From Gloeocapsa sp. PCC 7428 (GTDB lineage: Bacteria > Cyanobacteriota > Cyanobacteriia > Cyanobacteriales > Chroococcidiopsidaceae): a stretch of DNA of 64,000 bases. Made by a program: the position numbers and the translations under genes. A model generated the notes under the pieces. It did no database searches, was not told the origin of the DNA, and saw only the letters and a program-made list of their open reading frames with translations. Of the stretch, positions 47,825 through 56,001 are shown in pieces; the stretch's first letter is position 1; every line of letters begins with the position of its first letter. The stretch spans positions 248,001 through 312,000 of the forward strand of contig NC_019745.1 of NCBI RefSeq assembly GCF_000317555.1. The letters are read 5' to 3'.

Positions 47825-50641
47825 TCAATTTAAAACCAACTGTAAACTTTGGAGTAATTCTTGCTCATTAAAAGGCTTAGAAAAATAAGCTGCTGCACCT
47901 AAATTGAGCGCAAGTTGACGCTCTCTTTGTCCTTGACGCGAAGTTAACATTACAAAAGGTATTTGCTTGAGATTCGCAATTGATTTAACTTGGGCGAGTA
48001 AGCTGTAACCGTCAAGGCGAGGCATATCAACATCAGAAATCACAGCTTTTACTTGCAAGCCACTAAAAAGTTTTTCTAGCGCATCTTGTCCGTCGATCGC
48101 TTCTTCAACACGGTAGCCAGCTTTTTCTAGAGATAAAGTTAAAAAACGACGTACATTAATCGAGTCGTCTACGACTAAAATTGTGTTTTTATGACTTTGA
48201 ACTTTTGTATTAGTTGTCTCGGTTTGTTCTAATTTTACTGATTTCTGACAAGTAGAAACCCAATGCAGTAAAGCTGATGGATTCACTAAAGGAACAACGC
48301 GACCATCACCTAAAATTGTACAGCTAGAAAATCCAGGTGGCATGGCGATCGCGCCTTCAACTTGGCGAATTGCGACTTCTTGTTCGCCCCAGCAACGATC
48401 TACTTGCACAGCGACTAATTCATGACCTTGGATAATTTTTAATACCGTGGGAACACTCATGATTGGTACAGTGGCTGCATGAGATTTTTTGTGCGTCGAA
48501 CCACGAAATACAAGCCATTGTCCCAAGCGAATTAAAGGCATTGTATCGTTTTCCCAACTAAACATTTCATCACCAGCAATTGTGGTAATGTGTTCAGAGT
48601 TAAGCAAGAGCATTCCTTCGATCGCATCTGTCGGAAATGCTAAAAGCATTCCGTTACTTTCAACAAGAACAACTTTCGCGATAGAAAGTGTTATCGGTAC
48701 ATTAAGATGGAAAGTTGTACCTACACCAAGCTGCGTATCAACTTTAATATCCCCACGAATTTTGCTTAAGTTCGTGCGCACAACATCAAGCCCGACACCT
48801 CTACCAGACAAATTTGTTACTTGCTGCGCGGTGCTAAATCCTGGTTCAAAAATCAGCGTTAAAAGTTCTTGTTCGCTAGCAGTTTTCAGCGCATTTGCAT
48901 CTAAACCGAGTTGTTGTGCTTTAGCGCGGATAGCGTCTAAATCAATTCCCCTACCATCATCGCTAACGCTAATGATCGTTTGGTTACCGCGCGTAGTGGC
49001 TTTAATATTGATAGTGGCTTGTTCTGATTTACCGTGCGATCGCCGCGTTTGCGGATCTTCAATTCCATGATCGAAGGCATTACGTAATAAATGCATTAAA
49101 GGATCGTTTAATGCTTCTAAAATATTCCGTTCAATTAAAGTTTCGCCGCCTTGAATTTTTAAGTCAACTTTTTTGTTGTACTGTAATGAAAGCTCGCGTA
49201 AAAATATCGGAAATCGATTTAGTAAATCAGATAAAGGACGCATTCGCACTTGTGTCAAGCTTGTTTGTATCTGCTTTGCTGTGCGATTGAGTTCGCTGAC
49301 AGTTTGTGTCGTATCTTCAATACTAAGACTAATATCATCAGCGACTTCTTGAATACGAAAAATGTTTTCCATAACCTCATCGGTTAAAGTTCGGAGATTA
49401 GAAGTTTCGGTGGAAAATCTAGCAATAGAATTAGTTTCTTGTTCTATGCTATAGTTGTTAAACCTATCAGCAGCGTCTATATGCGAATAGTTATTTTTTT
49501 CATAAGCTGCGGATAAGCGAGTATCAAGGTTTTTTAACGTCCGAACTCGACCATCTAAAATTTTAACTAAATTTCTTAAACGCTCCAAATACAAATTAAT
49601 TCCGTTACGCTCGATTGTGAGTTCTCCAAATAAATCATTAAGGTGTTCGAGGATATCAATCGAAACGCGAACTGTTTTATCTTGCTCTTTGACAAGAGAA
49701 CCTGAATCAGACTCTGAAGCTAAATGAACAGATTTTTTTTCTGATTCTTGCGGAGGTTGGAGAGTAATTGAAGCTAATGTCTGCTGAAATTCTTGAGGAT
49801 TCGCCTCGGTTTCTGGATCGGAGAGTAAATCAAGAAGGGCTTCGAGTTCGGCTTGTGCGGTTTCTACATCGTTATTCTTAACGTCATCAAAAGGAATTGT
49901 TGCTGGTACAGTGCCTTGGTTAAGTAGAATTGCTGCTTGCGATCGCCGCCATTCTTGCAAAGCTAAACTTGCAATTTCTGTAACGCGATCGGGGGATGCT
50001 TCAAGATTGCGACTAATTGATTCGCACAAGCTTTGAAACGCAGAAAGTTGAAACATTTGCCCTAAGCTGGCAAAATCCTGCGCGATTGTGAAAGTTTCTT
50101 CAAAGAGTCCAGGGTGTTGCGGGTCTGCTAAGATAGCTTCTAATCGTTGCAGGCATTCTTCGACTTCGGTTTCAAAGACTAAAGTTTGCATATCTTGCGT
50201 ATCTTCTGGCAAGAGCAACTCATTGCTATCAACCGTTGTTGCATTTCCTAGACGTTGCTGTAGCTGAGAAAAAACCGGATCGACGTTGTTTTGTTGCCAT
50301 TGTTCGTCAAGCGTTGTTCCTTGATGATAGATAGCGATCGCTTGTCGCAAGCAACTGACACCTGCCAATAATAAACTTTCCAACTCAGCATCAATTGGCA
50401 GTTGCTGTGTTTTTAAAACTTTAAAAAAATCTTCTAAACGATGCGCGAGATCGCTTAATACAGGAAACCCCATCATCGCTGCGCCACCTTTAATGGAATG
50501 TGCAGCGCGTAGCACCGCATCCATTTGTTGACGATCTTCGCGTGCAGATGCAACCATAATTCCGGTTTCAATCGTGTTTAAATAGTCTTGAGCTTCCTCA
50601 AGAAACGATAGCCGGATTTCTAGTTCTTTATCCTTTACCAT
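47825..50641 (-). CDS. pixL: CheA-like hybrid histidine kinase (PixL type)
   Basis: A 938-residue kinase. The N-terminal HPt domain has AVLRAAHSIKGGAAMMGF (phospho-His about 48). A second HPt-like region and linker follow, then a CheA dimerisation segment, HATPase (LMHLLRNAFDHGIEDP; VSDDGRGIDLDAIRAKA; GRGVGLDVVRTNLSKIRG), a CheW-like P5 domain, and a C-terminal receiver (ILVVDDSINVRRFLTLSLEKA; VISDVDMPRLDG). This is the PixL/PilL layout. In Synechocystis PixL acts with PixJ in phototaxis through type IV pili. It is the last gene of the operon, 132 bases after pixJ, that gap containing a GGTCAGA heptamer run. Confidence 0.93.
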   Translation of the reverse strand: MVKDKELEIRLSFLEEAQDYLNTIETGIMVASAREDRQQMDAVLRAAHSIKGGAAMMGFPVLSDLAHRLEDFFKVLKTQQLPIDAELESLLLAGVSCLRQAIAIYHQGTTLDEQWQQNNVDPVFSQLQQRLGNATTVDSNELLLPEDTQDMQTLVFETEVEECLQRLEAILADPQHPGLFEETFTIAQDFASLGQMFQLSAFQSLCESISRNLEASPDRVTEIASLALQEWRRSQAAILLNQGTVPATIPFDDVKNNDVETAQAELEALLDLLSDPETEANPQEFQQTLASITLQPPQESEKKSVHLASESDSGSLVKEQDKTVRVSIDILEHLNDLFGELTIERNGINLYLERLRNLVKILDGRVRTLKNLDTRLSAAYEKNNYSHIDAADRFNNYSIEQETNSIARFSTETSNLRTLTDEVMENIFRIQEVADDISLSIEDTTQTVSELNRTAKQIQTSLTQVRMRPLSDLLNRFPIFLRELSLQYNKKVDLKIQGGETLIERNILEALNDPLMHLLRNAFDHGIEDPQTRRSHGKSEQATINIKATTRGNQTIISVSDDGRGIDLDAIRAKAQQLGLDANALKTASEQELLTLIFEPGFSTAQQVTNLSGRGVGLDVVRTNLSKIRGDIKVDTQLGVGTTFHLNVPITLSIAKVVLVESNGMLLAFPTDAIEGMLLLNSEHITTIAGDEMFSWENDTMPLIRLGQWLVFRGSTHKKSHAATVPIMSVPTVLKIIQGHELVAVQVDRCWGEQEVAIRQVEGAIAMPPGFSSCTILGDGRVVPLVNPSALLHWVSTCQKSVKLEQTETTNTKVQSHKNTILVVDDSINVRRFLTLSLEKAGYRVEEAIDGQDALEKLFSGLQVKAVISDVDMPRLDGYSLLAQVKSIANLKQIPFVMLTSRQGQRERQLALNLGAAAYFSKPFNEQELLQSLQLVLN

Positions 50642-50773
50642 GTGATTAAGCAGGGGTCAGAGGTCGGAGGTCAGAGGTCAGGGTTTTATTAAGGCAGGGA
50701 AACAAGGGTAAACTATGTACGAGAAACTTTTACAATTTCCTAACTCTATTGACCGTTGCTATAAATGAAAGAC

Positions 50774-53653
50774 TCAACTTTCATCATCGACTTTGAAGGC
50801 ACCAACGGAAGCTTGTAATTGCTGGGCGATAGTGGTTGTCTGTTGTAAAGAGCCAGAAACTTGCTGTGCCGAATTTGCGGTTTGCTCAGAAACTGTTGCA
50901 ATTTCTTTCATTAATTGGGTAACTTGTTGTGAAGTTTGGGCTTGCGCAATGGTTGCGTGAGAAATTGATTGAACTAATTGATCGATTTGGCGCGAGACAT
51001 CAAAGATCTTCTTGAGATTTTTCTTCGTATCTTCAACTAAATTTGTTCCTTCAACTACTTGATTTGTACCGAGTTCCATCGCGTGGGCAACTTCAACCGT
51101 TTCGCGTTGAATATTTTCCACAATTTGCTCAATTTCTTTTGTTGCAGCACTTGACTGCGAGGCAAGTTCGCCGATTTCTTCTGCTACCAAAGCAAAGCCT
51201 CTACCTTCTTCACCTGCACGATTTGCTTCTATGCTAGCGTTAATCGCTAAGACGTTGGTTTGCAGCGCAATTTGGTTAATCAAAGAAACGACTTTAGAAA
51301 TTTGTTGCGAGGATTCGCTTAACTGGCGGACTTTGCCTGCGGTTTCGGCGACAGTCTGGCGTAGGTTTAAAATACTATCTACCGTGTGGTTCATAGCGAC
51401 TCCGCCCACTTGTGCGGTTAGCGAAGCTGTGCGCGTAATTTCTGCGGCTTGGTGGGCGCTGGCGGCGACGTCTTGAATCGAATCGGTCATTTGTGCTAAA
51501 GAGTCAAGACTATGCGCGATCGCCTCGGCTTGTTGTAAGGCTTGATCGGCTAATTGATGCATCGCGCCTTGATTTTCGGCAACGGCAACATTCACTTGAG
51601 TTGCGGCTGTTTTGACATCGGTTGCGAGTTGGCGCAAGCTTTCAATGATCGAGTTAAAAAAGTCGGCTACAGTACCAATTTCGCCTGCGGTGACTTCTGC
51701 ACGTACTGTAAGATTTCCTTTGGTTGCTTCTTCGACATCGCTGAGTAATCCTAGCAATTGCTGCTGAAGTGCTTCTTTTTGCTGTCGTTGTTCCCGAGAA
51801 ATTTCTTCAGCGACTGCGCGCGCTTTTTCTACTTGTTCTAGAAGATAGGCTTGATCGAGTGCAAATCCGATTTGAGTTGCTAGCTGCGTGAATAAATCAA
51901 TTTCAGCTTGTTGCCAAGCGCGGGTTGTCGCACAGTGATGCGCAATCAGTAACCCCAGTAATTGGTTGTCTTTGAGGATAGGCGCGACTAAGTTGGCTTT
52001 AACTTCAAATCGTTCTAAAGTTTTGATATGACAATCGGTTAAACCTGCTTGATGGATATTATCAATGGCGCGCACGCGACCATTTTTATATTGTTGAATG
52101 TGTCGGTCTTTGAAACAAGGATCGTCGATGATTTCTGCTAATGCTTGTGTCCAGCCAGGTGCGACAGATTCCGCAACAACGGTACCACTGTAGTCAGGAT
52201 TAAATCGATAAATCACAACGCGATCGCATCTGAGAACTTTTCTAACTTCTTTCACCGCTGTCTTGAGAATATCGTCTACATTCAACGAGCGACGAATCCG
52301 AAAGGTAACATCTGCAAATAGTTGCGCTTGTTCGGTCACTTCTTCTTGCTGTTGCAGTAAACCTTGCAGTTGGTCTGCCATGTTGTTGATGTTAGCACCG
52401 AGCATCGCTAATTCATCTTTGCCATGTACGCTCAATCTTGTGTTGAGATGTCCGTTTCCGAGTTGTTGCACTGCTAGCGAAGCGTTGACGACGGGACGTA
52501 AGGCACGGTTAACTAAGTAAGCAGCGATCGCACCAATAAGTAATACGATCGCACTCGTTCCCAAGAAGAAGGGTAAAAATAATCCTTGACGGGCGGCGAA
52601 AACTTGCGCTGTAGGTAGGGCAACCATCGCACTCCAATTCAAGTCGGTTTGACTTTCAATTTGACGGATAGGGGTGTACGATACTAAATACTGTTGACGC
52701 TCGATGCGATCGCGGTCGATGATACTGCCGACGGACGTATTATTCGCTAATCGCGGCGCAACGCGGGGAAATACGGCTTGCGCGTCTTCACCGATATAGT
52801 CTAGGTGTTCGGTTGGAGCCACAACAATTTTGCCCAAGTCATTAATGGCAAAGTATTCTTCAACGCCGAAACTGTTTCCGGTTCGGGCTAAGGTTTTCGC
52901 TTCAGCGTGCAGAATTTCATTAAAGTATTGCACCGGAGTCCGCGATCGCACTACCGCAAAGACTTCTCCAGTTGTTGTATCAATCACAGGGGCTGCGGCA
53001 TAAATTGAATACTCGCCGGTTAATAACGACTTTCTCGGTGGTGTAACTACGGGGCGCTTGGTTCTAATACTTTGTTGAAAATAATCTACATTGCTATAGT
53101 TGGCGATGCCTTCTCCCGCAGTTTGCAGAATCACTTGACCGGCAGGGTCAATAACAACAATATTGTCGTAGCCAGGATTATTTTTAATATATTGCTCTAA
53201 ATTAAATTGTTTCGCTTGCGTCGGTACGATTGCCCGCACGGCAGGATCGCTTAACATACTCGACTGCGCCAGGTTTTGAATATCGAGATAGCGTTGTGCA
53301 ATAAAATTATCAAATTGACCAGCTAAAGCGATCGCGCGGGCTTGTTGCTGTTGCGTAACGTTGTTCGTAATGCCCTTATTTGTGATATAATACGCCGTTG
53401 CGCCAATAATGACGATCGGTAACGTGCTGAGGGCGATCGCGAGGGTAGTCGCTTTAGTTTTTAAGCTGAGTCGCTGCCAAAAAGGTAAACCTAACTTACG
53501 CAACGGTTGAATTGACGAGTGATTAACATCTAACCCTGATTGAGGTTGAACGCGGTTGGGGATATCATTAATACTATGGCGATCGTTGTCAAGATGATTT
53601 GCAGTTTTGTGTTGATGCCTACTCGTTGATTCCTGTTTAAATCGGGTTGCCAT
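50774..53653 (-). CDS. pixJ: Methyl-accepting photoreceptor, PixJ-like, with DXCF cyanobacteriochrome GAF domain
   Basis: A 959-residue transmembrane receptor. A polar N-terminus precedes TM1 ([22 protein letters not shown]), a dCache-type periplasmic domain, TM2 ([20 protein letters not shown]) and HAMP. A GAF domain spans about residues 450-610, then a second HAMP-like linker and an MCP signalling domain ([20 protein letters not shown] hairpin). The GAF holds DDPCF (Cys-513) and [19 protein letters not shown] (Cys-541, His-542). DXCF and the canonical Cys-His pair are the two bilin-linking cysteines of blue/green cyanobacteriochromes. Their 28-residue spacing equals that of TePixJ as I recall it. 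Only one GAF is present, unlike the two of Synechocystis PixJ1. Middle gene of the pix-type operon. Confidence 0.9.
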
Positions 53654-53690: not shown

Positions 53691-54182
53691 CTAGTAGTTA
53701 TGTAAACTGGGAGAATTTATAATTGCTTTTGCATCTAACACCAGCAATTTCTCTTGTTGTTGCCAAATATATCCTTCTAGGTAAGGAAGTAGTGCGCTGC
53801 TTTCTCCGGCTGAGGGTTGTAAATTCGATGTAACTCTAGTGACTCCTTTAATTTCTCGTACAATTAAGCTTAGCGGAGTTTCACCAACTCGCATAATAAG
53901 AATGTGGTATTGTTGACTACTCGCGTCAATCGGTTGTGCAAGCAACATCAGTGCTAAATCAACTGCCCACAAAATACGATTGCGGCGATTAAATAATCCT
54001 AATATGCACTCAGGCATATTCGGCATCGGCGTTATCCGTGTCGTCGGCACAACTAAGACTTCTTGCACATACTTCATCGCGAGAAGCGCTGGCGTATCCG
54101 CGTTGATCTGAAATCTCAAATAAGAACCACCCACATTGGTTTCTGACTGATGCGGCTGTGGTGTCAGAATAGGAATATCCAT
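53691..54182 (-). CDS. pixI: CheW-like adaptor (PixI type)
   Basis: A 163-residue CheW-domain protein starting [12 protein letters not shown]. The core matches Che[58 protein letters not shown], and [24 protein letters not shown]. It bridges the receptor PixJ and the kinase PixL. The ATG at 54182 lies five bases after the pixH stop; an upstream frame extension to 54278 overlaps pixH and is not the start. Gene position between CheY and the receptor equals that in the pix operon. Confidence 0.92.
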
Positions 54183-54187
54183 AAGAT

Positions 54188-54550
54188 TTAAGCAACGACT
54201 GATTTGACAGCACGAACTAATTCTTCGCGGGTAAAAGGCTTTGTGACATAAACAGCCGCGCCTTGTTTCATCCCCCAAAAGCGGTCAATCTCTTGATCTT
54301 TGGAACTACAAATAATAATTGGTAATTGTTCTGTAGCTGGATTATTTTTTAGTTTACGGCATAATTCAAAGCCACTCATACCTGGCATAACGATATCTGT
54401 AACAATTGCATCAGGTTTTTGTTCTACAGCTTTATGCAATGCTTCTTTCGCGCTGGTAGCACCAATAACACTGTAGCCACTTTCGCGAAGGTAATTACTT
54501 ATTAATTCTAATTCTGACAAAGTATCTTCAACTACTAAAACTGTAGCCAC
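54188..54550 (-). CDS. pixH: CheY-like response regulator (PixH type)
   Basis: A 120-residue stand-alone receiver. VLVVEDTLSELELISNYLRESG holds the acidic pocket, DAIVTDIVMPGMSGFELCRKL the phospho-acceptor Asp, IIICSSKDQEIDRFWGMKQGAAVYVTKPF the Ser/Thr and Lys. WGMKQGA is typical of PilH/PixH proteins. It should be phosphorylated by PixL and modulate pilus retraction. Five-base spacing to pixI and 56 bases after pixG support a single transcript. Confidence 0.93.
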   Translation of the reverse strand: MATVLVVEDTLSELELISNYLRESGYSVIGATSAKEALHKAVEQKPDAIVTDIVMPGMSGFELCRKLKNNPATEQLPIIICSSKDQEIDRFWGMKQGAAVYVTKPFTREELVRAVKSVVA

Positions 54551-54606: not shown

Positions 54607-56001
54607 TCAAGATAAATGCCGAAAGATTATTTTAAATAATTCTGATTGAGTAAACGGCTTGGTGAGATAGCCAGACGCGCCTACAAATCTAGCTTTGACT
54701 CTATCAATAATTCCTGTACTTCCTGTCACCATAATAATTGGTGTACTCTTAAATAAAGAATGATTGCGGAGAAGACGACACAATTCATAACCATCAATTT
54801 TAGCCATTTTGATATCTAATAAAATCAAATCTGGCTTGATCCTGACAACTTGCATAAGTGCTTTGACAGGATCGTTAATTGTAAATACATCAAAACTTTC
54901 GTCATCCAAAAGATGACCTAGTTCGCGTAACATTGCCTGACTATCATCAATACATACGATTTTGTATGCTGCTTTTTTAGTGTGCGAAGTAATAATTTTC
55001 TCTAACGGTTTAGCCGATCTTTCAATAGCTTTACTTGGAGGTACTACAAATCTCTCAATTGGTTTATTATTCCGCTGCGTGACTTCAGGTAGTTGGTTAT
55101 TAGGTGTAGCTTTAGTTAACGAAGTGGTTTGTTTATTATCGCTATTAATATTCTTATTGGTGTTATGTATGGTTGAAGGTTTGTTTTCAACCCTCACAGG
55201 GCTAGCAAGTTGAACGGCAAGTTGACTTTCTACTGGAGGTTCATATGTTCTTGGAAGTTGCTCAAAAGGTGGTTGAGGCTCGTGTAAGATGATACTCCCC
55301 ATTTTAATATAAGGATATAAACTTTGTGCTAGCTGTAGTTCGTCTTGATTGAGTAAAACAGCTAAGTGACGAATACTAAAACCTTTAAGGATCGAGCTTA
55401 GTTTATGTTGTGTTTCTGCGGTGAGTTGTTCTTTTATATTTGGTTGATTATTTAGGTAAGGACGTTGATAGGGAGACCAAAGTTGAGGTGCTAAAGATTG
55501 CCAAGATTTGATTCTTGGTTGGCAATGTTTGACTATTGGCTGCAAATCAAGTTGGCAAAACTCGGCTGGTAATATATCATACTTTTCGTCAAGTTCGTAG
55601 CTACCTTCTTGAATCAAGAGAAAGGATTCGACAACCTCTTTTACGAGATACTCAATCAAAGCTGCGGCTTGATTTTGATTGAGGTATTGATTGTCAAATA
55701 ACCAACAAATCGCTTGATATTCGGGATGTAATTCTGATGCATTGTCAAACCTTAAGCGCAGTTGCGAACGGATTTCGCTGTTGAGTGTAGCAGTATGATA
55801 ACTAAAGCGTCGCAAATAACAATCAAGGCGATCGCAAGGGTCCACCGTATGCGAAGCATAAAGAATTTTGCCTTGTTTCACATAAATAAACCAAGTAACT
55901 GTATTACTGGTCACTTTTAGACAGACGCTATCGTAACTACTACATAAATTGGCAAGTAAGCTTAAAGGACGTAGTTTTTGAAACGTGCCATGAATAGCCA
56001 T
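54607..56001 (-). CDS. pixG: PatA-type response regulator (PixG type)
   Basis: A 464-residue regulator. The N-terminal PATAN/DUF4388-type domain (residues 1-240; LANLCSSYDSVCLKVTSNTVTWFIYVKQGKILYA) is joined by a polar Asn/Thr/Lys-rich linker (about 270-340) to a C-terminal receiver: KIVCIDDSQAMLRELGHLL, DLILLDIKMAKIDGYELCRLL, and PIIMVTGSTGIIDRVKARFVGASGYLTKPF. The receiver keeps its acidic pocket, phospho-acceptor Asp and Lys. PATAN regulators in Synechocystis bind the pilus motor ATPase PilB1, linking light input to motility. First gene of the operon, preceded by a 972-base non-coding region. Confidence 0.92.
   Translation of the reverse strand: MAIHGTFQKLRPLSLLANLCSSYDSVCLKVTSNTVTWFIYVKQGKILYASHTVDPCDRLDCYLRRFSYHTATLNSEIRSQLRLRFDNASELHPEYQAICWLFDNQYLNQNQAAALIEYLVKEVVESFLLIQEGSYELDEKYDILPAEFCQLDLQPIVKHCQPRIKSWQSLAPQLWSPYQRPYLNNQPNIKEQLTAETQHKLSSILKGFSIRHLAVLLNQDELQLAQSLYPYIKMGSIILHEPQPPFEQLPRTYEPPVESQLAVQLASPVRVENKPSTIHNTNKNINSDNKQTTSLTKATPNNQLPEVTQRNNKPIERFVVPPSKAIERSAKPLEKIITSHTKKAAYKIVCIDDSQAMLRELGHLLDDESFDVFTINDPVKALMQVVRIKPDLILLDIKMAKIDGYELCRLLRNHSLFKSTPIIMVTGSTGIIDRVKARFVGASGYLTKPFTQSELFKIIFRHLS

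Follow-up and report, generated by a model that had tools for sequence, protein, structure and literature searches.

A probable PixJ-type receptor with both cysteines of a DXCF cyanobacteriochrome in a pix operon of Gloeocapsa sp. PCC 7428

TePixJ of Thermosynechococcus (PDB 3vv4, 4fof, 4glq, 6p58, and 2m7u) is a known photoreceptor with a DXCF-type cyanobacteriochrome GAF domain, whose blue state is near 430 nm and green state near 530 nm. In its crystals Cys494 and Cys522 hold phycoviolobilin (PVB), and the photocycle of this GAF is blue/green (PMC6955287). DXCF GAFs are described as binding phycocyanobilin (PCB) at the canonical cysteine and usually converting it to PVB. The second cysteine bonds C10 of the pigment in the blue-absorbing dark state and is released in the green-absorbing state (PMC11284453). 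Synechocystis PixJ1 (tax1 locus) is a phototaxis methyl-accepting chemotaxis protein (MCP) that also has a blue/green GAF and is accompanied by a CheW, a CheA, and two response regulators, and in the tax1 model the signal is transferred through CheW and CheA to receivers and pili (PMC5812497). Another example is Nostoc punctiforme PtxD, a cyanobacteriochrome-MCP fusion encoded with Che genes and required for positive phototaxis (PMC5812497). Here we describe a receptor gene of this kind, pixJ, in Gloeocapsa sp. PCC 7428. It lies in a stretch of 64,000 nucleotides (contig NC_019745.1, positions 248,001 to 312,000), which is called the window below and from whose first letter positions are counted.

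The gene belongs to a known kind of receptor and has the same layout and operon as TePixJ. Pfam matches on its product are dCache_1 (residues 95-330), HAMP (380-430), GAF (459-599), and MCPsignal (765-921). Hydropathy puts two hydrophobic segments at about residues 67-91 and 355-386, as in a membrane MCP with a cyanobacteriochrome GAF. Since the dCache domain is flanked by these two stretches, it is probably periplasmic, with the GAF on the cytoplasmic side. Five genes, pixG-H-I-J-L, are consecutive on one strand (-) in the order found around TePixJ (locus L143). Identity to the products of that locus is 44% for PixJ (924 columns), 45% for PixL (951), 71% for PixH (116), 36% for PixG (463), and 37% for PixI (136). 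Trees were made from 37 hand-chosen loci with 35 PixL (none from L163 and L076), 50 MCP tails, and 83 GAFs. Long branches are flagged in all three, and a number of inner forks are poorly supported. The PixL tree places the window PixL and TePixL in one 24-row group (100/100), and the MCP tree places the two PixJ proteins in one 27-row group (100/100). We give a probability of about 85% that the gene encodes a PixJ phototaxis receptor whose DXCF GAF would respond to blue and green light and signal through CheW/CheA to type IV pili. This would be one more DXCF receptor for phototaxis, here from a cyanobacterium close to Gloeocapsopsis; the closest named relative is G. crepidinum LEGE 06123 (87%).

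There are four cysteines in the window PixJ, at residues 476, 513, 541, and 574. The original prediction had singled out the two of the DXCF type, and the open reading frame (ORF) bears this out: Cys513 lies within DDPCF and Cys541, followed by His542, within TDCH, 28 residues apart as in TePixJ. The phmmer alignment to TePixJ (3vv4) is without gaps and places Cys513 on Cys494 and Cys541 on Cys522, the pigment-binding cysteines. D511-P-C513-F514 aligns on D492-P-C494-F495, and Cys541-His542, at the start of helix alpha-4, on Cys522-His523. The GAF is of the bilin type (Pfam GAF, 1.1e-24), and the top PDB matches of residues 461-608 are cyanobacteriochrome GAFs. Its predicted fold also matches such GAFs, with TePixJ first in the list and tied with others. 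The genome has one match to a bilin reductase, which scores 370 bits as PcyA (cut-off, 206) and falls far short of the cut-offs of the other reductase models, and one match to heme oxygenase. PCB is therefore the expected precursor. The operon, the alignment, and PcyA support the earlier proposal that this is a dual-cysteine DXCF GAF of the TePixJ type, which would bind a bilin and sense blue and green light. The T2SSE ATPase family, which type IV pili require, has five matches in the genome, a weak pointer to pili as it also matches in 14 of 14 control genomes.

By homology, pigment attachment, isomerisation to PVB, the colours, signalling, and a phototaxis role can be proposed for the window PixJ as follows. 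The cytoplasmic GAF would bind PCB at Cys541 and convert it to PVB. A further bond in the dark state, between Cys513 and C10 of the bilin, would make this form blue-absorbing. Under blue light the 15,16 double bond would flip and the Cys513 bond would break, giving a green-absorbing form, which would be reversed by green light or by time. The signal would pass along the helix after the GAF to the MCP tip, and from there to PixI, the kinase PixL, PixH and PixG, and finally type IV pili. The sequence contradicts nothing in the general DXCF mechanism, and each of these steps is one that we infer for this receptor.

Several observations weigh against taking the window PixJ simply as a second TePixJ. 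In the GAF tree the window GAF shares a 21-row group (99/90) with GAFs of Nostocales, and the TePixJ GAF is in a separate 10-row group (100/98). A constraint that unites 11 window-type with 10 Te-type GAFs as a single clade carries a cost of 53.9 log units (approximately unbiased test, p=0.0029, a value that is too favourable since the group was named after seeing an earlier tree). The two GAFs, 49% identical, thus do not look orthologous, and because they do not group, the colours of TePixJ are not simply transferable. There are also four differences in the pocket region: His498, Trp499, Gln526, and Leu530 of TePixJ are Arg517, His518, Thr545, and Phe549 here. In TePixJ, His498 and Trp499 contact the B-ring propionate (PMC6955287). 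By its predicted fold alone (VIA-align), the GAF cannot be assigned to TePixJ over other cyanobacteriochrome GAFs, red/green and far-red types among them, and no spectrum or mutant of the window PixJ was found. A GAF that is not orthologous does not exclude membership in PixJ, because one to five GAFs are reported in PixJ proteins (PMC13383048).

These differences bear on the rival that survives best, in which the receptor is of the same kind and has other colours (e.g., blue/orange or blue/teal), with PCB unconverted or ring D twisted differently. The place of the window GAF outside the TePixJ group is in its favour. So is Thr545, which replaces the Gln526 toward which, together with Asp492, the pigment twist goes in a TePixJ crystal illuminated at 150 K (PMC6955287). 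Red/green and teal DXCF types are described as using a Phe on beta-2 and a Phe on alpha-4 (PMC5240096). In our own mapping, from the alignment with the red/green GAF 6bhn, Phe549 is at the putative alpha-4 place and matches the Phe eight residues past the cysteine in 6bhn. However, the residue at the putative beta-2 place is Val492, as in TePixJ and not Phe, and Ile509, Asp511, and Pro512 are identical to their TePixJ equivalents. Moreover, most dual-cysteine GAFs (46 of the 62 among the 83) have Phe at 549. Gln occupies position 545 in 44 of the same 62, and eight have Thr or Ser there (the window, L030, L016, L163, L164, two of L076, and one of L081). Tyr (41), Trp (10), and His (nine) occur at position 518. 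From these counts, His518 and Thr545 are marks of the window GAF line, and Phe549 is the common state to which Leu530 of TePixJ is the exception. Other colours seem rather unlikely to us, and because Val492 and not Phe is at the presumed beta-2 place, blue/green is kept as the first guess for the window PixJ, with tuning that may differ. The spectral tuning of its own that had been suggested earlier is thus possible through changed pocket residues, and the single-GAF and dCache layout is not the reason for it.

The disagreement among the trees has its own interest. Since the GAF tree splits what the MCP and PixL trees unite, it points to different GAFs having been kept or exchanged within orthologous receptors. 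One receptor of the same family, L164, has two GAFs, Tyr518/Gln545 in one and the window-like His518/Thr545 in the other. This pair fits differential loss and suggests, with moderate supports, a two-GAF ancestor that was trimmed in different ways. Also in the 21-row group are five GAFs from L076 and L081, whose receptors belong to the second operon group; this suggests exchange. It is conceivable, though we think it doubtful, that a separate DXCF GAF line replaced or outlived the TePixJ-type GAF in orthologous pix receptors and that its pocket (His518, Thr545, and Phe549) gives a photocycle unlike that of TePixJ. If the window GAF is truly from another line, comparing its spectra with those of TePixJ would show how far colour can change in an otherwise constant receptor and operon.

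A different origin, in which the window GAF comes from the first and the TePixJ GAF from the second GAF of two-GAF, PixJ1-like receptors, was rejected because the careful GAF tree sets most cysteine-less first GAFs outside all dual-cysteine GAFs. The idea came from a quick tree in which the window GAF was represented only by its 98% relative L011, likewise not grouped with the TePixJ GAF, and in which long branches are flagged too. A first GAF that is cysteine-less with a DXCF GAF behind it, as described for Synechocystis PixJ1 (PMC5812497), occurs mostly in the second group (L145, L148-L150, and L162) and also in L159 and L071 of the first. Synechocystis PixJ1, unlike the window PixJ, has two GAFs, with pigment on the second only (PMC5812497). 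The original prediction drew this contrast correctly as to number, but it may concern a different, paralogous operon. As a guess, Synechocystis would be in the second operon group, and the split would be one of Te-like and Sy-like operons. PtxD differs further, with seven GAF domains against one in the window PixJ.

A single GAF with a dCache domain had been thought a special case. That this layout is unusual was rejected, as TePixJ has HAMP, one GAF, dCache_1, and MCPsignal and the same operon order. Relatives were gathered with the window PixJ as query, so that layouts near it are over-represented in the following counts. Of 109 loci, 79 have an ORF that matches GAF as well as MCP (the other 30 were left out), and one GAF with a dCache match is found in 58 of these 79. 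After removal of seven near-identical loci, 57 of 72 have a single GAF, and 52 of these 57 match the window-type dCache. DXCF is combined with CY in 41 of the 57 and with CH in 11 (the window included); five have no DXCF. The Nostocales single-GAF PixJ-like receptors (e.g., L032, L045, L057, and L103) share the layout and the operon with the window, and their GAFs are in its 21-row group. These and others differ from it in that Tyr follows the canonical cysteine, DXCF being kept, and that the loop before this cysteine is three residues longer, so their cysteines are 31 apart. Two Pix-type receptors, L080 and L085, are on contigs labelled as metagenome-assembled genomes of Myxococcota and Gracilibacteria. 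These contigs are probably cyanobacterial and wrongly binned.

The dCache domain raises another alternative, that the protein is mainly a chemical receptor, its dCache responding to a periplasmic ligand with the GAF as a modulator only, or with both signals summed. The AlphaFold model of dCache is good (mean predicted local distance difference test, pLDDT, 86.2 with 36 sequences) and matches solved chemoreceptor dCache domains such as PctA, including those of amino-acid and other chemoreceptors. However, TePixJ carries the same dCache, and in 29 of the 29 relatives compared the GAF is the better conserved of the two domains (means of 61.6% for the GAF and 41.5% for dCache; six Te-type, second-locus, and other rows were left out of this comparison). 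In addition, the amino-acid, amine, and purine dCache_1 sensors are described as sharing the Trp of a Trp-Tyr/Phe pocket pair (PMC11245519), and there is no Trp in residues 60-339 of the window PixJ; by eye, the place of the pair reads Tyr191-Phe192. A periplasmic ligand is possible, with nothing pointing to one, and a mainly chemical receptor is improbable. That the cysteines have been kept with the photochemistry lost, or that the receptor is not made, is very improbable indeed.

Three further long relatives of the window PixJ are found side by side in the same genome, at about 1.597-1.606 Mb of G000:C1. They belong to a second pix-like locus outside the window (L112, G000:C1:1592000-1611000), which has a DUF4388-receiver gene, a receiver, a CheW, the three receptors, and a CheA hybrid. 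The three tandem receptors are single-GAF, dual-cysteine DXCF proteins, two with dCache_1 and one with sCache_3_3, and one of the three has CY in place of CH. The PixL tree splits L112 from the window operon and TePix (100/100), and so does the MCP tree. With four dual-cysteine single-GAF receptors in two pix-like loci, this genome offers a natural set for asking why near-copies are kept. Another GAF of the same genome (L006, a 704-amino-acid open frame) has DPCF and QQCY. In the quick tree it falls together with L008 and not among the PixJ GAFs.

The coordinates of the pix genes and of the main features of pixJ are given in Table 1. DUF4388, found in PixG, is presumably a PATAN-type domain.

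Table 1. Features of the pix operon in the window
Feature	Position in window	Strand	Basis and remarks
pixJ, receptor ORF, 959 amino acids, dCache-HAMP-GAF-MCP	50774..53653	-	ORF list; Pfam; TePixJ ORF match
dCache domain, residues 95-330	52664..53371	-	Pfam; hydropathy; AlphaFold model
GAF domain (putative bilin pocket), residues 459-599	51857..52279	-	Pfam; gapless phmmer alignment to TePixJ 3vv4; predicted fold
Cys513 codon, second cysteine (DXCF), equivalent to TePixJ Cys494	52115..52117	-	alignment
Cys541 codon, canonical cysteine (CH), equivalent to TePixJ Cys522	52031..52033	-	alignment
pixL, CheA hybrid kinase (Hpt, HATPase_c, CheW, receiver)	47825..50641	-	Pfam; PixL tree; downstream of pixJ
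pixI, CheW, 163 amino acids from first ATG at 54182	53691..54182	-	ORF list; Pfam; upstream of pixJ
pixH, CheY-like receiver	54188..54550	-	Pfam; 71% identity to Te PixH over 116 amino acids
pixG, DUF4388 and receiver	54607..56001	-	Pfam; 36% to Te PixG over 463 columns

A scan of the window PixJ against NCBIfam returned 15 families, with none above its cut-off. A plasmid search found nothing close, the best among 4360 records being at 55% over 63% of the query. Note that the pixI ORF as listed (53691-54278) begins with a TTG inside pixH, and that the first ATG is used in Table 1. Between pixJ and pixL there is a short array (50651-50681) of the 7-base unit CAGAGGT in 4.4 copies.
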